A DNA stretch of 35,418 nucleotides from Candidatus Harrisonbacteria bacterium (lineage in GTDB: Bacteria; Patescibacteriota; Minisyncoccia; UBA6257; WO2-44-18). The stretch covers positions 1-35,418 of the forward strand of contig JACOXP010000010.1 of assembly GCA_016182295.1 (NCBI GenBank). The letters run 5' to 3'. Under the pieces are notes generated by a model. It saw nothing but the letters and a program-made list of their open reading frames with translations, made no database searches and was not told the DNA's origin. The translations under genes and the position numbers were made by a program. Positions 476-33,510 of this stretch are shown in pieces (the stretch's first letter is position 1; every line of letters starts with the position of its first letter).

Positions 476-2089
476 ATGGCAAAACAAATTTTATTCGATG
501 AAAAAGCGCGAGAAGCGCTCAAAAAAGGAGTAGATAAGCTTGCTAAGGCGGTGCAGGCCACTTTGGGTCCGCGCGGCCGGGCGGTTGTTTTGGAAAAAGG
601 ATACGGCGCCCCGCAAGTTACTTTCGATGGCGTGACTGTTGCCAAAGAAATCGAATTAGAAGATAAATTTGAAAATCTTGGCGCTGATCTCCTGAAGCAA
701 GCGGCCGACAAAACCAACGACGCGGTTGGAGACGGCACTACCACTTCTATTGTATTAGCTCACTCTTTGATTTCCGAAGGGGAGAGAATTTTGAAATCCG
801 GCAAGGGCGTCAATGTTATTCAACTCGCCGAAGATCTCCGCGCCGGTGTCGCCGAACTTATTAAAAAACTTGAAGCGCAGAAAGAAGCGGTCAATGATCA
901 GAAAAAACTGGAAGAAGTCGCCTCGCTTTCCGCCAAAGACAAAACTATCGGCAAGTTAATCGCCGAGGTTATTAATAAAGTGGGCAAAGAAGGGGTTGTA
1001 ACAGTTGAGGACTCCAACACCATCAACAATGTCTACGAAATTGTCGAAGGAATGCAGTTTGATCGCGGATTTATTTCGCAATATATGGTTACCAACGCCG
1101 AGCGAATGGAAGCGGCGCTTGAGAATCCTTATATATTAGTAACCGACAAAAAGATTTCTTCCATTCAGGAATTGCTTCCGATTTTAGAAAAAATCGTGCA
1201 GAGCGGCAAAAAAGAAATGGTGATTATTGCCGATGAAGTTGATGGCGAGGCGCTCGCTACTTTGGTAGTTAACAAGCTACGCGGTATTTTCAGCGTGCTC
1301 GCTGTTAAAGCTCCGGGTTTTGGCGATCGCCGCAAAGAAATGTTGCAAGACGTCGCTATTGTTACCGGCGCTCAATTTATCTCCGAAGATCTTGGTAAGA
1401 AACTTGAAAATATTGATCTTGGCGATCTTGGGTCGGCGCATCGCGTTGTTTCCAATAAAGACGTGACGACCATCGTCGGCGGCAAAGGCGACAAACAGCA
1501 AATTAAGGACAGAGTTTCCCAAATCAAGGCCCAGTTGCAAAAAACCGATTCCAGTTTCGACAAGGAAAAACTTCAGGAACGGCTTGGAAAACTTGCCGGC
1601 GGTGTCGCTGTTATTAAAGTCGGCGCTCCGACCGAATCGGCCCAAAAAGAATTAAAACAGCGCGTCGAGGACGCGGTGCACGCGACCAAAGCCGCGATGG
1701 AAGAGGGAATCGTGCCGGGCGGCGGCATGGCGCTTTTCTACGCCGGTTTGGAATTGCGTGGCCAGCAAAATTACGCCAACGATCTTCTGATTTCCGCTTG
1801 CGAAGCTCCAATTCGGGCGATCGTGGAAAACAGCGGCCAATCGCCGGACACCATCATCAACCGCCTTCCGAAAAAAGCCGGTTGGAACGGGTATGACGCT
1901 GGCAAGCAAACAGTTGTCGATTTGAAAGCGGCCGGCATCGTTGATCCACTCAAAGTGACCAAAACCGCTTTACTGAATGCCGTTTCCGTCGCCGCGAATT
2001 ATTTGACAATTGGAGCGGCTGTTACCGAGCTACCAAAAAAAGATAGTTCGACAGGCTCACCGCAAGGCATGCCGCCGATGGAATATTAA
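476..2089 (+). CDS. groEL: Chaperonin GroEL
   Basis: 537 aa; VQATLGPRGRAVVLEK, DGVTVAKEIELED, NDAVGDGTTTSIVLA and VPGGGMAL motifs. Confidence 0.98.
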   Translation: MAKQILFDEKAREALKKGVDKLAKAVQATLGPRGRAVVLEKGYGAPQVTFDGVTVAKEIELEDKFENLGADLLKQAADKTNDAVGDGTTTSIVLAHSLISEGERILKSGKGVNVIQLAEDLRAGVAELIKKLEAQKEAVNDQKKLEEVASLSAKDKTIGKLIAEVINKVGKEGVVTVEDSNTINNVYEIVEGMQFDRGFISQYMVTNAERMEAALENPYILVTDKKISSIQELLPILEKIVQSGKKEMVIIADEVDGEALATLVVNKLRGIFSVLAVKAPGFGDRRKEMLQDVAIVTGAQFISEDLGKKLENIDLGDLGSAHRVVSNKDVTTIVGGKGDKQQIKDRVSQIKAQLQKTDSSFDKEKLQERLGKLAGGVAVIKVGAPTESAQKELKQRVEDAVHATKAAMEEGIVPGGGMALFYAGLELRGQQNYANDLLISACEAPIRAIVENSGQSPDTIINRLPKKAGWNGYDAGKQTVVDLKAAGIVDPLKVTKTALLNAVSVAANYLTIGAAVTELPKKDSSTGSPQGMPPMEY

Positions 2090-26219: not shown

Positions 26220-26342
26220 CCAAAGTAAACAGTCATTGCAAATAATAGTTAGAACCGAAAAACAGCCCATTTTGTGAGCCATTTCCCGTTCGCTCCCTAC
26301 CCTCGAGAAAGAAAAATAAAATACCCCGACAAGCGGAGTATT

Positions 26343-26426
26343 TTATTTTTTGTACTCCAAATAAACTCCGTAGGCGACAAGCAGAGAAATTAAAAATCCT
26401 ATTGTAAAAATAGCGGTGTCGCTCAT
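26343..26426 (-). CDS. 27-aa single-TM micro-protein (not in ORF track)
   Basis: MSDTAIFTIGFLISLLVAYGVYLEYKK*. Confidence 0.5.
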   Translation of the reverse strand: MSDTAIFTIGFLISLLVAYGVYLEYKK

Positions 26427-26455
26427 ATTGACTGGCCGAGCACAGACCTAAAATA

Positions 26456-26599
26456 TTACTTACGTAAAAGCGCGCCCAAGCTTAAAATAGACGGAACCCA
26501 CAAACCGACAAAAACACCGGTGTCCTTTTGTCCCGTAAACCATAAATACACCGCCAACAAAAACGCAATCCCAGCGGCTACAATAAATTTATTTTTCAT
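26456..26599 (-). CDS. 47-aa membrane micro-protein (not in ORF track)
   Basis: MKNKFIVAAGIAFLLAVYLWFTGQKDTGVFVGLWVPSILSLGALLRK*. Confidence 0.55.
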   Translation of the reverse strand: MKNKFIVAAGIAFLLAVYLWFTGQKDTGVFVGLWVPSILSLGALLRK

Positions 26600-26674
26600 A
26601 AAAATTCTTAAATTATTTTTAATTACTCGACCGTATTCATTGTAGCATATTACAAATAAATACTTTCTTGCCCG

Positions 26675-26767
26675 TCCGTAGCTTTAGTGAAGGATTGCTC
26701 AACACCGTAGACCTGCCTGCCGGCATATTAGAATCGTGTTTAGGCAAGAAAATGAATATATTTATAT
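26675..26767. repeat. Interspersed repeat element copy A
   Basis: tccgtagctttagtgaagg ... cctgcctgccggca ... attagaatc ... atatttatattcc, shared with copies B and C. Confidence 0.6.
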
Positions 26768-26801
26768 TCCAAATCTTACGCTGACGGTATAAACTCTTTG
26801 T

Positions 26802-27431
26802 ATGAGAAGCTTCGCATTTGTTGACGCCTCAAATCTGTTTTATGGTGGCGAAAAAAGTCTGGGCTGGAAAATCGATTATCAGAAATTGATTGATTATCTT
26901 AAAAAGAAATATGGAGTAAGCGCAGTTTTTTATTTCGGTGGGGTGGAAACTCACGACTTTACTTTTGATTATCTTAATAACGAAACGGTGTCTATTATAG
27001 GGTTAGAAAAATACTTGGTTAATATTCTCAAAAATAATGAGGAAAAGTTAAATGAGGCAGATATTGTATTAATTGGCAGACACTTAAAACGAGTTCGCTT
27101 TTATGAACGCCTGGAGAAATTTGGATATACATTAGTTTTGAAACCAGTAAAAACTTACGAACAAGAAGACGGTACAACTAAAAGAAAAGCTAATTGTGAT
27201 GTAGATATGACTTTTTATTTAATGAAAGAAGTGGACAATTTTGATAGAGCGATCATCCTATCTGGTGATGGAGATTTTCTGCCAGTTTTGAAACACCTTA
27301 GGAAGCTTGGGAAAAATATTGAAATATTAGCTAGAGGCCCAAGAACCGCTAAAGAGATTCGCCAGTTTGCCGGCCCCAGCTTTAAAGATTTCGTGCGTTT
27401 AGAAAACGCCCTCAAATACAACAAGAACTAA
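26802..27431 (+). CDS. NYN domain (LabA/DUF88-like) putative ribonuclease
   Basis: SFAFVDASNLFYG; CDVDMTFYLMKEVDNFDRAIILSGDGDFLPVLKHLRKLGKNIEI. Confidence 0.92.
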   Translation: MRSFAFVDASNLFYGGEKSLGWKIDYQKLIDYLKKKYGVSAVFYFGGVETHDFTFDYLNNETVSIIGLEKYLVNILKNNEEKLNEADIVLIGRHLKRVRFYERLEKFGYTLVLKPVKTYEQEDGTTKRKANCDVDMTFYLMKEVDNFDRAIILSGDGDFLPVLKHLRKLGKNIEILARGPRTAKEIRQFAGPSFKDFVRLENALKYNKN

Positions 27432-27625
27432 AAGAGGCGGACATGCGAAATATCCGCCTCACGTTTAGTACTTCCAAATATAGGGCTAAAGGAGGTGTTA
27501 GTCAATAGACTTATCAACACCCCCCATCATATGTTCAATAACAATTGAGAGCAAGTCTTAGGAGGGATTTTGGCCATTTCGGCCAAGGAGTGTCGGATGC
27601 GGGCGGCTCAGTTGAGGACAAGTAA

Positions 27626-28054
27626 TTAAAATAATTTTTCCGAAATCCGCTTGAACTCACGAATACTGGGATCGCGCCTTTTTCTTTTTAGTAAAATTTG
27701 CGCCAGTTGATTATGCGTTGTTCGCCATAAACCGATAACTCGATATTTTTCATCCAGTGTAACCAAAACGGCATAATGAAATTGGTGCTTTGAAAAAGTA
27801 CTTATTCGCCCCTTGTTATTGTTTGCGCGCCGAGCCTTGATCTGATAAGTTTTGCCGCGGCCGTCTTTGGCATCATAGCCAGCAGTTCTCGGGTCGGCCA
27901 TTAATTTTAGCCCAAGTTTTTTACAAACCAATAACTCTCCAACCTCGCCAGTGATGCCAAGATTTCTACCGGACAGCTTCTCGTATTCTAACGCCGCCGA
28001 TATGGCTTGCTTTACTATTTTAAAAATTTTTAGGGTAATCCGAACCGTTCGCAT
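27626..28054 (-). CDS. PD-(D/E)XK-like putative nuclease (DUF6998-like)
   Basis: GEVGELLVCKKLG...AGYDAKDGRGKTYQIKARR (D...QxK), FHYAVLVTLDEKYRVIGLWR. Confidence 0.6.
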   Translation of the reverse strand: MRTVRITLKIFKIVKQAISAALEYEKLSGRNLGITGEVGELLVCKKLGLKLMADPRTAGYDAKDGRGKTYQIKARRANNNKGRISTFSKHQFHYAVLVTLDEKYRVIGLWRTTHNQLAQILLKRKRRDPSIREFKRISEKLF

Positions 28055-28072
28055 ATGAGTATTGTTTTGAAC

Positions 28073-28138
28073 GCACCCAGGTCTCCGCCGGCTGGCGGAT
28101 TCACCAAAACTAACTGCTCCTGAAATGGGGTTCTAACT
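28073..28138. repeat. Interspersed repeat element copy E
   Basis: gcacccaggtc + palindromic tccgccggctggcgga (28084-28099) + aaaactaactgct (28106-28118) + ggttctaac; shares core with copy D. Confidence 0.6.
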
Positions 28139-28241
28139 TGTTTTTAGCTTAAAATAATACTTCCCAATATACAATATTTTACTTCAGGGAGCGTATTTGA
28201 TATTTTTGAAGTAGCTTTTTGATATATAGCGGAGGTGAACA

Positions 28242-29426
28242 TTGGCAAAGATTAGTTGGCCAAGACGAGCCATAAGCTTATCTTTCTGGATTTTTTCGGC
28301 CTGGTATCTTTACATAAGTGGAATAGCAACTCAAAGTTTGAATTTTGTTGATACGCTTATTAGTATTTTATTGGCGAATCTTATCTTTGTTTCAATCTTT
28401 ACTTTTTACGCGGGAACTGGAAAGAACAAAGATATTCTCTTCCAAGAGGCCTTCGGCGCTGGGTCTGCACGATTTATTATTTCTCCTTTACCCGCGTTAG
28501 CACAAATTGGCTGGTTCGCGGTTTTGGTAGAAGCGGGAGGTGGGGCGCTGGCGAATGCTTTAAACGTTGCAACTGATTCCATAGTCGGAATTTCCCTCAT
28601 TGCCTTGTACGGGTTAATCGCCACATGGATTGCGTGTCGCGGTCTCGGCACTATAGATCGCTTAAGTTTATTTGCAATTTTTGCAATGGTTGGATTTTTT
28701 GGCTGGGGTGCTTATAAAGCATTTTCTCAATTAGGCGCGTCAGGAATTTTCGGATATCAGCCTAGTGGATCAGCCGGCATATTTTTTGGAACACAACTTT
28801 TTCTTGCTGCTTTTATATCAGCTGCAGTGACTATTCCTGATTTTCTGCACGACCTTGGAAATAAGAAAAAAATATTTTTAGCTTCCTTTTGGGGACTCCT
28901 GCCAACCGCTGTAGCAGTCGGCGCTCTTGGATCAACACTCGCCATTATCGGAAAAGATTATGACGTGTTGAAAACCTTACAATTTTTGAGCGGTCCGTTT
29001 TTTATCTATCTGCTTTTTAGTATTGATAACCTCAAACCGATTGCTATTTTCCCCGTTGGCACCAGTTTTGCTAGCTTGCATAAACAGTCTGAAGATGTAG
29101 CAGTAAATGAAAAACGCCGTAAGCTTTGGACTATTGCGGGGGGAGTGATAGCTATTATTTTTGCAGAAATAGGCATCGTTCAGCATTTACCGGAGTGGCT
29201 TAATATCTTGAGTATTGTCTTCGCGCCTATTATTGGGGTTGTCCTTGCAAATCAATACATAGTGAAAGAGAATTCTACCGACAAAAGATGTCATTTTCTT
29301 GCTCTTTTAGCCTGGGGTGCGGGTTGCGCCGCATCTTTTGTACCTTTCGGAATACCAATGCCGCAATCTTTACTAGTCGCGTTTGCGATATTTATTCTAC
29401 TAAAGAAAGTATTTCTACCCAGTTAA
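28242..29426 (+). CDS. Cytosine/purine permease-like (NCS1-type) transporter, TTG start
   Basis: ~12 hydrophobic segments; ALAQIGWFAVLVEAGG; SD ggaggtg 5 nt before TTG. Confidence 0.65.
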   Translation: MAKISWPRRAISLSFWIFSAWYLYISGIATQSLNFVDTLISILLANLIFVSIFTFYAGTGKNKDILFQEAFGAGSARFIISPLPALAQIGWFAVLVEAGGGALANALNVATDSIVGISLIALYGLIATWIACRGLGTIDRLSLFAIFAMVGFFGWGAYKAFSQLGASGIFGYQPSGSAGIFFGTQLFLAAFISAAVTIPDFLHDLGNKKKIFLASFWGLLPTAVAVGALGSTLAIIGKDYDVLKTLQFLSGPFFIYLLFSIDNLKPIAIFPVGTSFASLHKQSEDVAVNEKRRKLWTIAGGVIAIIFAEIGIVQHLPEWLNILSIVFAPIIGVVLANQYIVKENSTDKRCHFLALLAWGAGCAASFVPFGIPMPQSLLVAFAIFILLKKVFLPS

Positions 29427-29430
29427 TTAT

Positions 29431-29457
29431 ATAAGCCACCTTTTAGGTGGCTTATTT
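29431..29457 (+). terminator. Terminator
   Basis: ataagccaccttttaggtggcttattt. Confidence 0.8.
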
Positions 29458-29511
29458 ATATAATAAATTTAAATCGGTTCTGCGTCCCATTTGGCTTATA
29501 GTGCTTGCAAT

Positions 29512-29615
29512 TCCGTAGCTTTAGCGAAGGCGGGTTTGCCCCCCATAGCGAGCGACTTGAGAGGTTATTAGAACCAGAATTCAGCAGTCCAAAGCACATA
29601 TTTATATTCCCGCTT
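29512..29615. repeat. Interspersed repeat element copy B
   Basis: tccgtagctttagcgaagg; ggttattagaaccagaattcagcagtc (29563-29589) identical to copy C. Confidence 0.75.
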
Positions 29616-29625
29616 TAACGCATAT

Positions 29626-29820
29626 CAACGCTTTCTTAGAGGCGTTCTCTCATCTTTCATTTCTCGTTTCACAGCTTCATCGTAATTTTCACCGCTTATG
29701 ACGTGCCCGCCAACAGAATGGTCTAATAATCCATCTTTTTTGCGAAGCTTTCTAGGTGTATTGGTTTCGGTAGCCCTAATTTGCCCTACCTTGTTGTAAA
29801 AATACCAAACGGGTGATAGG
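29626..29820 (-). pseudogene. Truncated NUDIX hydrolase fragment
   Basis: Minus-strand reading LSPVWYFYNKVGQIRATETNTPRKLRKKDGLLDHSVGGHVISGENYDEAVKREMKDERTPLRKR* without ATG; ends just after the Nudix box next to repeat B. Confidence 0.65.
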
Positions 29821-29859
29821 ATGTGCCTAGCTCGTCAGTTTACGAAATGGAGGACGCGA

Positions 29860-30099
29860 ATGAGCTGGGTAGATAAACTCGTCAAAGGAAAGGTGCCTTA
29901 CAAATTTGATGAGATAGTGAGCCTACGCAAGAAAAAGAAAACTTATTACCTTTGTCCAGAGTGCGGAAGCAAGTTAACGACCCATTGTCTCTGTCCAAAA
30001 GTGGATGCCGTATGCGAAAACGAACATAAGTGGCATTTGGAATATGACGCCACCACAAAAAAGTATTTTGTCAGAAAAGGACACTCTGACCACCTCTAA
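29860..30099 (+). CDS. Small zinc-ribbon-like protein
   Basis: YYLCPECGSKLTTHCLCPKVDAVCENEHKW; SD tggagga; start moved from 29821. Confidence 0.7.
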   Translation: MSWVDKLVKGKVPYKFDEIVSLRKKKKTYYLCPECGSKLTTHCLCPKVDAVCENEHKWHLEYDATTKKYFVRKGHSDHL

Positions 30100-30117
30100 C
30101 ACGATAAAAAGTCTTAT

Positions 30118-30140
30118 GACCTGCTTTTGCAGGTCTTTTT
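30118..30140 (+). terminator. Terminator
   Basis: gacctgcttttgcaggtcttttt. Confidence 0.8.
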
Positions 30141-30156
30141 ATTTTATTTATTTTTG

Positions 30157-30330
30157 GATGCACCTGGGTCTGCCCTCCTTTGCTAAAGATACGGAAGGGC
30201 GATGCCTCGCCTTCGCATAAAGTTTTGGCGGAGCTAAGCAAAACTAACTGCTTGCCTTGAACCTGCTTGCGGTGAGCTTGTCGAACCTGTCGAAGGGCTC
30301 CGCGCGCTTCACGCATTTAGAACCGCAATC
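30157..30330. repeat. Interspersed repeat element copy D (composite)
   Basis: gcacctgggtct; aaaactaactgct (30241-30253); nested gcttgcggtgagcttgtcgaacctgtcgaagggctc; tttagaacc. Confidence 0.65.
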
Positions 30331-30410
30331 TGGCAGATTCCCGGCAACATTTCTCCCTTCAAGATCGTGAACTACTGGTGAGAACCTGCCGTATTGAATC
30401 GAATTTGACG

Positions 30411-30449
30411 AAAACAAGAAGCCGGATCAATTATCCGGCTTCTTGTTTT
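30411..30449. terminator. 17-bp-stem bidirectional terminator; contains merC-like stop codon
   Basis: aaaacaagaagccggat-caatt-atccggcttcttgtttt. Confidence 0.9.
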
Positions 30450-30813
30450 TTCTAAATAGCGACTTGTTGTAGAAAACTGAGATAACAATCAATAACGCAC
30501 CGGGTCCCCAAATCCACCACGCGCCACAAGTGCTTGCGAATACATATCGGCCGACATAGAGAAGAGCCGCACCGATAATCAACAATATAAGCGGCTTAGG
30601 ATTTTTGTGTGCTCGGTAATCAAGAATAAAACCTACTGCGCCGAGAGCGATGAACCCGAACGCAATCCACTGCCATGCTGGGATTAATGCGCCAAGACCC
30701 AAATAAGTTAAAAGCGAGGCGGAACCAATCCAACAAAGAGGGCATACGCCTATTGCTCCAGCACCCAACACTGGGGCTAACATCGAAAGCAGTTTTTTGA
30801 AGAAGTTTTGCAT
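30427..30813 (-). CDS. MerC-like membrane protein
   Basis: Four TM; GAGAIGVCPLCWIGSASLLTYLGLGALIP; located in operon with merA. Confidence 0.6.
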   Translation of the reverse strand: MQNFFKKLLSMLAPVLGAGAIGVCPLCWIGSASLLTYLGLGALIPAWQWIAFGFIALGAVGFILDYRAHKNPKPLILLIIGAALLYVGRYVFASTCGAWWIWGPGALLIVISVFYNKSLFRKNKKPDN

Positions 30814-30822
30814 ATAGCTATT

Positions 30823-31323
30823 TTAGCAAGAAATACAAACTTTGTTTATTTTGCGAGCCATTAAATAAATCGCAATAAGCATTAGAGCAGTGACTCCAAC
30901 GACAAAATACCAACGATAATCCAGGACAAAGACAACGCCGCCAAACCCTATACCAAAAATTGCAAACAGAGGCGCGAGGCACGAAGCGCAAAAAGCTGTA
31001 CCTGCGATACCGGCAAAAAGAGCACCGAGCCCGCCGCCCACCGTTCCACCCAAACCCGCAACTTTTTTTCTCAACTTCATTACAAATACTTGCATAGTAA
31101 TGAAAAGCGAGGATAGGCCAGACAAAAGTACAAGAACCGCATAGTCACGAGCAGTAAAAATCTTTAATTGATATGCAAGAGTATTGCCGGCCACCGTCCA
31201 GACAGGGATAAGGACAAAAAGGGCAAAGAAAACGGAAAAAAGAATAAGAAAAAGAATAGTATAGTTTATATTTTTGAATGGCTCACGAGTACCGAACCAT
31301 ATTGTTGTTATAATTTGCCTCAT
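30823..31323 (-). CDS. Cys-pair membrane protein in mer operon
   Basis: Multi-TM; AGTAFCASCLAPLFAIFGIGFGG and C-terminal KINKVCISC. Confidence 0.65.
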   Translation of the reverse strand: MRQIITTIWFGTREPFKNINYTILFLILFSVFFALFVLIPVWTVAGNTLAYQLKIFTARDYAVLVLLSGLSSLFITMQVFVMKLRKKVAGLGGTVGGGLGALFAGIAGTAFCASCLAPLFAIFGIGFGGVVFVLDYRWYFVVGVTALMLIAIYLMARKINKVCISC

Positions 31324-31616
31324 AGAAATTTATGTTTATGTTCGTCGCACACCTTCGCTTGATGGAAATAAGAAAAAATAACTATAAATGAAATGGCAAT
31401 GATATGAGCGGAAATCAAGAAAATAAGCACTCTATCGCCAACAGCAATGGCGTGCGGCAAAATAAGTAATGTGGCGAAAAACCATAACAACCATGCTTTT
31501 ACACTGATGCCATAGGCGCAATGTTTTGTAATCAAATGTACGATTTGAGGTATATATGCAATAGCAACCAGAATAGTTCCGATGAATGCGAGAAGTTCTA
31601 AATTCATATACAGCAA
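31320..31616 (-). CDS. PQ-loop/SemiSWEET-like membrane protein
   Basis: 98 aa, three TM, IAYIPQIVHLI, GISVKAWLLWFFATL. Confidence 0.75.
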   Translation of the reverse strand: MLYMNLELLAFIGTILVAIAYIPQIVHLITKHCAYGISVKAWLLWFFATLLILPHAIAVGDRVLIFLISAHIIAISFIVIFSYFHQAKVCDEHKHKFL

Positions 31617-33007
31617 CTCAATTTACTGATGTCTTTGGTAAATGACAATGCGGCAATTTTTATCGCCTCCGAAAGTGTCGGGAACATCGGCAGAGAATTC
31701 ACCACATCGTCAATAGTATTTTTGTTCTTTACAATCATCATTCCGGTCGCGATCAATTCACCGGCATTCGGCGCGAGAATCTGCATGCCGACAATTTTCG
31801 GTGATTTTGTATCTACGGCCATATGAATCAGCCCTTCGGTGCGGTGCATAATAATTGCCTTGGGCACATTTTCAAAAGATATCGTCCGGCAGTTGCAAAT
31901 ACCTTGCTCTTTCATTTGTCGGCTCTCGCTTGTACCAACACCGGCGATTTGCGGGTCGGTAAAGACGGTGAACGGCACGGTGTCGTAGTCGATAGAGAGC
32001 GTAGCCCCCTTGAGTGCATTTTCCGCCGCAAGCGTACCTTCGCGTCCGGCTGTAGTTTCGTAACGAGCGGGAGCGTTCGTCACATCGCCAACGGCGTATA
32101 TGGCAGGGTTTGTTGTCTGGAGCGTCTCGGTAACCACAATCGATTTTCGGTCATTCACCTCGACACCTACTGCCCCCAAGTTAAGCCCCTCTGTGTTGGC
32201 CGTTTTGCCGGCGGCAAGCAGTATTTCATCCGCCTCTACCGTTTGCTCTTTGCCTTCGGCGGTAAACGCAATAACTTTTTTGTTTCCTGCTTTGTATGCT
32301 TTTGTGATTTCTGCGTTTGTGATGATAGTCACGCCCTCTTTCTTGAGTACCTCCGTCAAACGATCTGTGAGCGGTTTTTCTACTTGAGGAAGAATAGACG
32401 GTCCGCGTTGGAGCACGGTTACCTTCGTGCCAAACCGAGCGAACATTTGTGCAAACTCCAGGCCGACCGGCCCTGCGCCGATAACAATCAACTCCTTGGG
32501 CTGTTTTGGCATTTTTAGAGCTTCGATATGAGTAACAAACCCTACTTCACGAATACCTTCTATCGGCGGGACATTAGCGGTAGAGCCGGTGGCGATAATA
32601 AATTTTTCCGCAACTAACTTCTCACCATTCACTTCCACCTCATTTTCGGAAACAAATTTTGCCTTGCCCTCAATGGCGACTACATGCTCTAAATTCTTTA
32701 AAACCTTTTCGTATTTTTCAATCCGCAATTTTTCAACCAGCGATAATTCATCTTGCACAACTTTTTGAAAATCAAAATTCTTTACTTCAATATCAAGACC
32801 GGGAATTCCATGATGTTTGGCATGATGCATCGTTTCGCCGGCCCAGAGAAGTGTTTTTGATGGAACACAGCCGACATTGACGCAAGTACCGCCTAGTGGC
32901 AGGCCGGCATTAATCATGGCAGTTTTTGCTTTTAGTTCGTTAGCGCGGATTGCGGCCGCAAATGCGCCTGCCCCGCCGCCGATAATAATGAGGTCGTATT
33001 TGGTCAT
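31604..33007 (-). CDS. merA: Mercuric reductase-like FAD-dependent oxidoreductase
   Basis: GGGAGAFAAAIRANEL, GGTCVNVGCVPSK, IYAVGDVT, C-terminal vicinal SKLSCCI; start MTKYDL; no N-terminal HMA domain. Confidence 0.85.
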   Translation of the reverse strand: MTKYDLIIIGGGAGAFAAAIRANELKAKTAMINAGLPLGGTCVNVGCVPSKTLLWAGETMHHAKHHGIPGLDIEVKNFDFQKVVQDELSLVEKLRIEKYEKVLKNLEHVVAIEGKAKFVSENEVEVNGEKLVAEKFIIATGSTANVPPIEGIREVGFVTHIEALKMPKQPKELIVIGAGPVGLEFAQMFARFGTKVTVLQRGPSILPQVEKPLTDRLTEVLKKEGVTIITNAEITKAYKAGNKKVIAFTAEGKEQTVEADEILLAAGKTANTEGLNLGAVGVEVNDRKSIVVTETLQTTNPAIYAVGDVTNAPARYETTAGREGTLAAENALKGATLSIDYDTVPFTVFTDPQIAGVGTSESRQMKEQGICNCRTISFENVPKAIIMHRTEGLIHMAVDTKSPKIVGMQILAPNAGELIATGMMIVKNKNTIDDVVNSLPMFPTLSEAIKIAALSFTKDISKLSCCI

Positions 33008-33318
33008 GTATTTAATCGCCCCTTGAGCATTTTCACAAAAGGAGTTTTCTTTAATTGATAATAGACATTGCGAAAGTCCCGACGGTTTTCCACAATATCG
33101 GCTTCCTGAAGTTTTTTGAGCGTATGAGATACGGCAGAAATAGATACGCTGATAATATCGGCAATTTCTCCCACGGAAAGCTCTTTGTGTCGGCACAAGA
33201 GATAGCAGATTTTAAGACGGGTCGGATCGCCAACCATATTGAACTCACCGGCGCATTGCATAAGCGCGTCGTGGTTCTCAAGCTCTTTCTGAATTTTCTT
33301 TATGTCTCTGGTTTGCAT
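33004..33318 (-). CDS. ArsR/SmtB family regulator
   Basis: MVGDPTRLKICYLLCRHKELSVGEIADIISVSISAVSHTLKKLQEADIVENRRDFRNVYYQL; ATGA overlap with merA. Confidence 0.92.
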   Translation of the reverse strand: MQTRDIKKIQKELENHDALMQCAGEFNMVGDPTRLKICYLLCRHKELSVGEIADIISVSISAVSHTLKKLQEADIVENRRDFRNVYYQLKKTPFVKMLKGRLNT

Positions 33319-33328
33319 ACCTATTCAA

Positions 33329-33357
33329 ATGATAACGAAAAAATAAAAAGAGCGCAA
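33329..33357 (-). promoter_or_regulatory. Promoter of arsR-merA operon, 10-nt leader
   Basis: Minus strand TTGCGC-17-TATCAT. Confidence 0.5.
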
Positions 33358-33394
33358 TGCCCACAATCCACAATTACCCCGAATTACGAGCTGT

Positions 33395-33510
33395 ATGCCC
33401 CCGTGGCGAGAGTTTGCCACCGGGACAGAGCCCTGCCTGCCGGCAGGCAGGGGTTATTAGAACCAGAATTCAGCAGTCAAAGGAGTGGGTTCATATTCCC
33501 AACCTCGCTT
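33395..33510. repeat. Interspersed repeat element copy C
   Basis: Perfect palindrome CCCTGCCTGCCGGCAGGCAGGG (33431-33452); ggttattagaaccagaattcagcagtc (33452-33478) identical to copy B. Confidence 0.8.

Follow-up and report, generated by a model that had tools for sequence, protein, structure and literature searches.

Five intergenic sites, A to E, in a contig of Candidatus Harrisonbacteria bacterium (contig C16, taken whole as the window of 35,418 bases) are probably spacers that carry short palindromic insertions of several families found throughout the phylum Patescibacteria, with a few also sharing a spacer module, R. The sites do not form one family but a mixture of three layers, namely R, the palindromes P1 and P2, and the palindromes P3 and P4. 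A preliminary description of this DNA had seen in them a single mosaic family with a conserved scaffold and exchangeable inserts. The mosaic is real as a mixture of a local duplicated spacer with micro-palindromes spread through the phylum, so that the observation was partly confirmed and its interpretation is partly supported. The genome (G000) comprises 632 kb in 19 contigs and is 91% complete, and its size and gene content point to Patescibacteria. Roughly half of the sequence was examined directly, in stretches; statements on the whole genome rest on pattern and family searches.

The layers emerge from pairwise comparison of the sites against 300 dinucleotide shuffles (p floor 0.003). Similarity exceeded the shuffle level for A-B, A-D and B-D, which have P1 in common, for A-C through P2, and for D-E through a 27-nt segment (p about 0.003–0.007 each), while a self-search of the window matched B with C over 33 bp (E 3e-7). 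A-E, B-E, C-D and C-E stayed at the shuffle level, and neither D nor E aligns to R, which rules out A to E as one family. The motifs quoted in the preliminary description were all found in place or a few bases off, and its hairpin common to A and B, its sequence common to A and C, and its identity between B and C hold as P1, P2 and the 33-bp match, respectively. Of the sharing claimed for D and E, the 27-nt segment stands, but the GCACC..GGTCT link is at or near background. Likewise, TTAGAACC, proposed to tie B and C to D and E, occurs 17 times in a 281-kb sample of the genome and links them no better than chance. The 27-mer by which genome copies were to be collected is present exactly twice in this genome, and 380 genomes of the phylum added two matches with 2 mismatches, none convincing; it was rejected as a genome-wide or phylum-wide repeat. 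The same applies to AAAACTAACTGCT as a phylum repeat, since its 10 matching genomes are fewer than those matched by the reversed control.

P1 combines a CTTG tag with the hairpin CCGTAGC-TTTA-GCGAAGG and measures about 30 nt. It is present in A (26667–26693, plus strand, core CCGTAGCTTTAGTGAAGG) and in B (29504–29530, plus strand), and a degenerate copy lies in inverted orientation in D (30177–30195, minus strand). With at most one mismatch, the pattern TCCGTAGCTTTAGYGAAGG was found in 58/287 phylum genomes at 1–8 copies each, and the reversed pattern in none. An ungapped alignment of the 58 copies with A and B gave the consensus CTTG-YCCN-CCGTAGC-TTTA-GCGAAGG-N'GGR, with 91.6% of the stem cells paired and a core that keeps its mismatches. 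The tag is unpaired, its letters being conserved in 35 (C), 36 (T), 32 (T) and 42 (G) of 58 copies. The four outer pairs covary, as the preliminary description had proposed to examine: 51 double changes were counted against 19 expected, a value reached in 0/500 shuffles, although related sequences inflate counts of this kind. The signal collapses when the partner strand is slid, and it was not built in, because the copies were chosen by their core and not by the outer pairs. P1 keeps its stem by compensatory change. Target duplications beside P1 or P2 show no clear excess, unlike in a miniature inverted-repeat transposable element (MITE), which has terminal inverted repeats and target duplication.

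Some copies of P1 stand close to tRNA genes. A tRNA gene lies within 100 bp in 18/113 copies against 1.5 expected by tRNA density, an excess estimated at about twofold if intergenic DNA alone is considered. P1 starts 1–4 nt past a tRNA 3' end in 4/152 copies, against roughly 0.03 by an estimate from 45 tRNA genes per Mb. At loci L265, L297, L038 and L040, P1 follows the tRNA 3' end by 1–4 nt, each time opposite to the tRNA orientation.

P2 is a perfect 20-bp palindrome, CCTGCCTGCCGGCAGGCAGG, complete in C (33432–33451) and partial in A (CCTGCCTGCCGGCA, 26712–26725). Its pattern CTGCCTGCCGGCAGGCAG was recovered from 40/192 genomes at up to 24 copies, with none for the reversed control. In 35/36 copies the palindrome reaches exactly 20 bp and goes no further, with flank information close to zero, and no clear excess of target duplications was seen in 72 copies, apart from one 8-base coincidence. 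P2 lies in frame in dnaE (in two genomes, at different positions), fpg and msrB; compared with solved MsrB and Fpg sequences, the P2-bearing proteins have net inserts of 8 and 5 residues, respectively. In the dnaE gene of genome G208 the insert is 21 nt long and encodes LPAGRQA. It is missing in G092 (protein 87% identical), G070 and G142, all of the same genus, so that the comparison of occupied and empty sites suggested in the preliminary description bears out an insertion at this one locus. Altogether, P1 and P2 are recurrent, bounded units, and one P2 is a precise insertion missing from three relatives.

The two palindromes also meet within single genes. In the pth gene of this genome, a P1 hairpin carries P2 in its loop, the entire insert is in frame, and homology of the protein to most solved Pth sequences ends at the insert; a second genome (G196) likewise has P2 nested in a P1 loop. 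The pth case, outside the region first described, is the strongest support for swappable palindromic inserts. Palindromes do sit inserted in a repeated scaffold, as seen in A compared with its paralogous site on contig C2 and in the P1 loop at two places, but the scaffold R is itself a private spacer of four copies. In the uvrD-like gene of one genome, P1 lies in frame and encodes SFAKASEG; a relative from the same genus has the P2-like LPTGKQA a few residues off in the same variable loop. Genomes with P1 also tend to have P2 (odds ratio 2.7, p 0.012, uncorrected for phylogeny). Among contigs catalogued as viral (L180–L234), P2 was present in 33 stretches and P1 in 22, against 0 and 1 for the reversed patterns.

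P3 and P4 form the thinner third layer and recur at low counts in this and other genomes. In E, the P3 palindrome TCCGCCGGCTGGCGGA (28084–28099), with TCCGCCAGCTGGCGGA variants elsewhere, overlaps the segment shared with D (TGGCGGA...AAAACTAACTGCT; 28092–28118 in E and 30226–30252 in D, both plus strand), a local two-copy similarity. D also holds the P4 palindrome CTTGTCGAACCTGTCGAAG (30277–30295, plus strand; family pattern TGAGCTTGTCGAA). A P4-like sequence (TTCGACAGGCTCACCGCAAG, 2046–2066, plus strand) lies in frame at the 3' end of groEL and encodes the tail SSTGSPQG; it cannot be called an insertion, because the groEL tails of relatives are too variable.

Several points weigh against reading the sites as spacers with mobile palindromic insertions. 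The P1 stems are decayed in A and B, including the outer stem of A, and P1 is scarce per genome (1–8 copies) next to the classical repetitive extragenic palindromic sequences (REPs). The uvrD-like example of P1 lies in a hypervariable protein loop, and P2 has just one clean empty-site comparison at the nucleotide level. Furthermore, the associations across genomes, both co-occurrence and that with transposase genes described below, may reflect genome size or ancestry, and no mobiliser of P1 and P2 was found. Low copy number, named at the outset as a sign against a mobile family, does apply to the scaffold R; the inserts, by contrast, occur phylum-wide, though with few copies in each genome.

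As for mechanism, P1 and P2 may be selfish, non-autonomous micro-elements comparable to REPs or Rickettsia palindromic elements, which would insert as folded single strands without target duplication; the copies in the window may have arrived with accessory, horizontally acquired DNA. Such insertion, as performed by Y1 enzymes of the HUH type, would fit the lack of target duplication, the sharp ends and the hairpin shape; it is well established for IS200/IS605, and for REPs it is a proposal (PMC8266576). The leading guess for the mover, a tentative one, is a Y1 enzyme that would act in trans or would have acted in an earlier host. It is unlikely that P1 and P2 are canonical REPs moved by a dedicated REP-associated tyrosine transposase (RAYT), a Y1 HUH transposase recognising tag and hairpin. 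The unpaired tag and mismatched stem of P1 would agree with this, the lack of target duplication suits the chemistry of Y1 enzymes, and genes for these enzymes are found more often in P2 genomes (29/40 versus 63/152, odds ratio 3.7, p 6e-4) and slightly so in P1 genomes (p 0.03), both values uncorrected for ancestry. However, no Y1 (PF01797) gene was found in this 91% complete genome or in 23/58 P1-carrying genomes, the tag is not that of REPs, and the perfect symmetry of P2 would allow no strand discrimination. In addition, P1 or P2 occurs at only two of 20 RAYT-like loci (G175, G130), outside the flanking palindromes and never as the flanking repeat, and linkage to RAYT was dropped; the link to an HUH transposase first proposed is weak. 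The RAYT-like Y1 genes of the phylum (about 200–260 aa; L072–L091) are flanked by palindromes of their own, such as CAAGGACTGTCCTTG or GGTGCGACCTATGGCATAGGTCGCACC, which differ per gene.

A GIY-YIG nuclease was considered as an alternative mobiliser and set aside as a lead, not a result: three independent loci, and one in this genome, have such a gene no more than 200 bp from P1, about 3 against 0.6 expected by estimate. One GIY-YIG gene, on contig C2 (L236:12542–12966), has a P1-like sequence at each end of its frame and stands between two copies, each of 15 bp, of a tRNA 3' end (CCCTACCCGGGGAGC); the locus resembles a tRNA-end element of very small size. Another fragment of a tRNA 3' end, the third (L236:15979), abuts the P1 beside the R copy on this contig. 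It is conceivable, if speculative, that P1 and P2 are the first representatives of a class of mobile micro-palindromes that extends across the phylum and has a non-RAYT mobiliser of its own; insertion would be directed partly to tRNA 3' ends, with the P1 loop as a landing site for P2.

Ordinary transcription terminators or mRNA-stabilising hairpins are a very improbable explanation of the sites. GC-rich hairpins do lie between genes here, but a T-run follows P1 in just 2/58 copies, which is not the pattern of intrinsic terminators, and P1 and P2 also occur in frame inside open reading frames. The terminator-like site at 30118 adjoins D and is not D, and the inverted repeat at 29428–29458 adjoins B. 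An Rfam search of the window returned two tRNAs only and no family for A to E. Even less credible is an integron-like cassette array in which each element would be an attC-type folded site between single-gene cassettes. The stretch of 26.7–33.5 kb does hold about one structured element per accessory gene or operon, and the two arms of A are complementary (p 0.0055). However, such complementarity is not significant in B, C or the C2 copy, no integrase scored above the cut-off in the 91% complete genome (best 82 bits versus 265), orientation and modules are inconsistent, and P1 and P2 occur singly genome-wide and within genes; the attC reading is largely refuted. Chance motif sharing plus one local duplication (B-C) accounts for the background-level links through TTAGAACC, GCACC..GGTCT and AAAACTAACTGCT, and so stands for the ties of D and E to R, but is refuted for P1, P2 and R, which lie far above background, and as an account of the whole it is the least believable of all.

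R is an ungapped 52-nt module present on the plus strand in A (26720–26771), B (29560–29611) and C (33449–33500), with 32/52 identities for A-B, 31/52 for A-C and 42/52 for B-C; elsewhere in the 281-kb sample of this genome, none of 561,752 positions scored above 30/52, the best value reached. A profile search located a fourth copy, G, on contig C2 (E 1.8e-4). It lies upstream of a second NYN gene, whose DNA is 71% identical over 783 nt to the NYN-domain gene of the window (26802–27431, plus strand), itself 30 nt downstream of the R module of A. A and G are therefore the sequences that precede two paralogous genes on the 5' side. R is private to this genome, a local spacer duplicated within it, with two of its four copies accompanying an NYN gene, and D, E and TTAGAACC fall outside it. 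Where A has CCTGCCTGCCGGCA, which overlaps the first bases of its R module, G has GGC, and A has 348 extra nt (26353–26700), ending in P1, between R and a block termed F, without counterpart at the C2 site. B and G share not only R but also P1 and the left flank of P1, so that P1 followed by R is the sole consistent module order (A, B and G); in C, the hairpin CCCGTGGC-GAGAGTTT-GCCACCGGG (33400–33424) stands where P1 would be expected.

Block F (26276–26352) is a 77-nt sequence with a terminator-like inverted repeat. Its counterpart next to R on C2 (L236:15822–15898) is 96% identical, whereas the neighbouring genes of the two loci are only 71% identical, which suggests recent conversion or mobility of its own. 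The 33-bp direct repeats of B and C (29560–29592 and 33449–33481) enclose 3.9 kb, a possible excision unit, with a mercury-type block of MerC-like, MerT-like, PQ-loop, flavoprotein disulphide reductase and ArsR-type genes (30427–33318, minus strand; the MerT-like label is a reading without Pfam match). Together with NYN, DUF6998 and antitoxin SocA-type genes, this block makes 24–35.4 kb of the window an accessory region. Several occurrences of TTAGAACC in the genome belong to an unrelated 117-bp MITE, present in three copies 98–100% identical (C9:10187–10303, C11:8502–8618, C12:4784–4900), with ends TCCCGTTAGAACC/GGTTCTAACGGGA and 4-bp target duplications TGAA, TGAG and TTCA; further ends of this element (ATCCCGTTAGAAGTGG) occur on C8 and C12.

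Genomes of Patescibacteria are very small, yet about one fifth of those sampled carry each of P1 and P2, including copies inside dnaE, fpg, msrB and pth. A literature search of incomplete coverage returned no description of such elements in this phylum. Recurring odd peptides in its proteins, such as LPAGRQ and FAKATED, are best read as insertions and not as the protein's own biology. If P2 is indeed mobile, its 20 bp, through which essential enzymes have repeatedly gained a tolerated peptide, would rank with the smallest mobile DNAs known, and one would have to ask by what means DNA is moved in these bacteria.

Among known systems, bacterial interspersed mosaic elements resemble site D in the clustering of mixed hairpins at one spacer; here, orientation does not alternate regularly, and different families are mixed and at times nested. 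REPs are 20–40 bp long, fall into GTAG and CGTC super-families with RAYT/TnpA-REP, and are known also inside replication and repair genes (PMC3733652, PMC8266576). P1 shares their hairpin size, one-sided unpaired tag and conserved stem mismatches, and P1 and P2 share their intergenic preference and their insertions in replication and repair genes. The likeness to REPs first proposed therefore holds for architecture and behaviour, but not for the tag (CTTG in P1; neither tag nor mismatch in P2), for high copy number (1–8 for P1, up to 24 for P2), or for a cognate RAYT flanked by the same repeat or any other known mobiliser. Rickettsia palindromic elements (PMC10969869) and the protein-coding palindromes of Wolbachia and Methanocaldococcus (PMC10969869, PMC2996958) are similar in another respect: like P1 and P2, they occur in intergenic DNA and also in frame within genes that are unrelated and often essential, to which they add a short tolerated peptide. 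In-frame insertion is seen here in dnaE, fpg, msrB, pth and the uvrD-like gene, and an empty orthologous site at one locus (dnaE). The Rickettsia elements measure about 150 bp (about 100–150 bp for protein-coding palindromes at large) and are known from few genera, whereas P1 and P2 measure 20–30 bp and are phylum-wide at low copy. By this analogy, P1 and P2 appear to act like both REPs and Rickettsia palindromic elements, and could be classed as a variant form of REPs and protein-coding palindromes.

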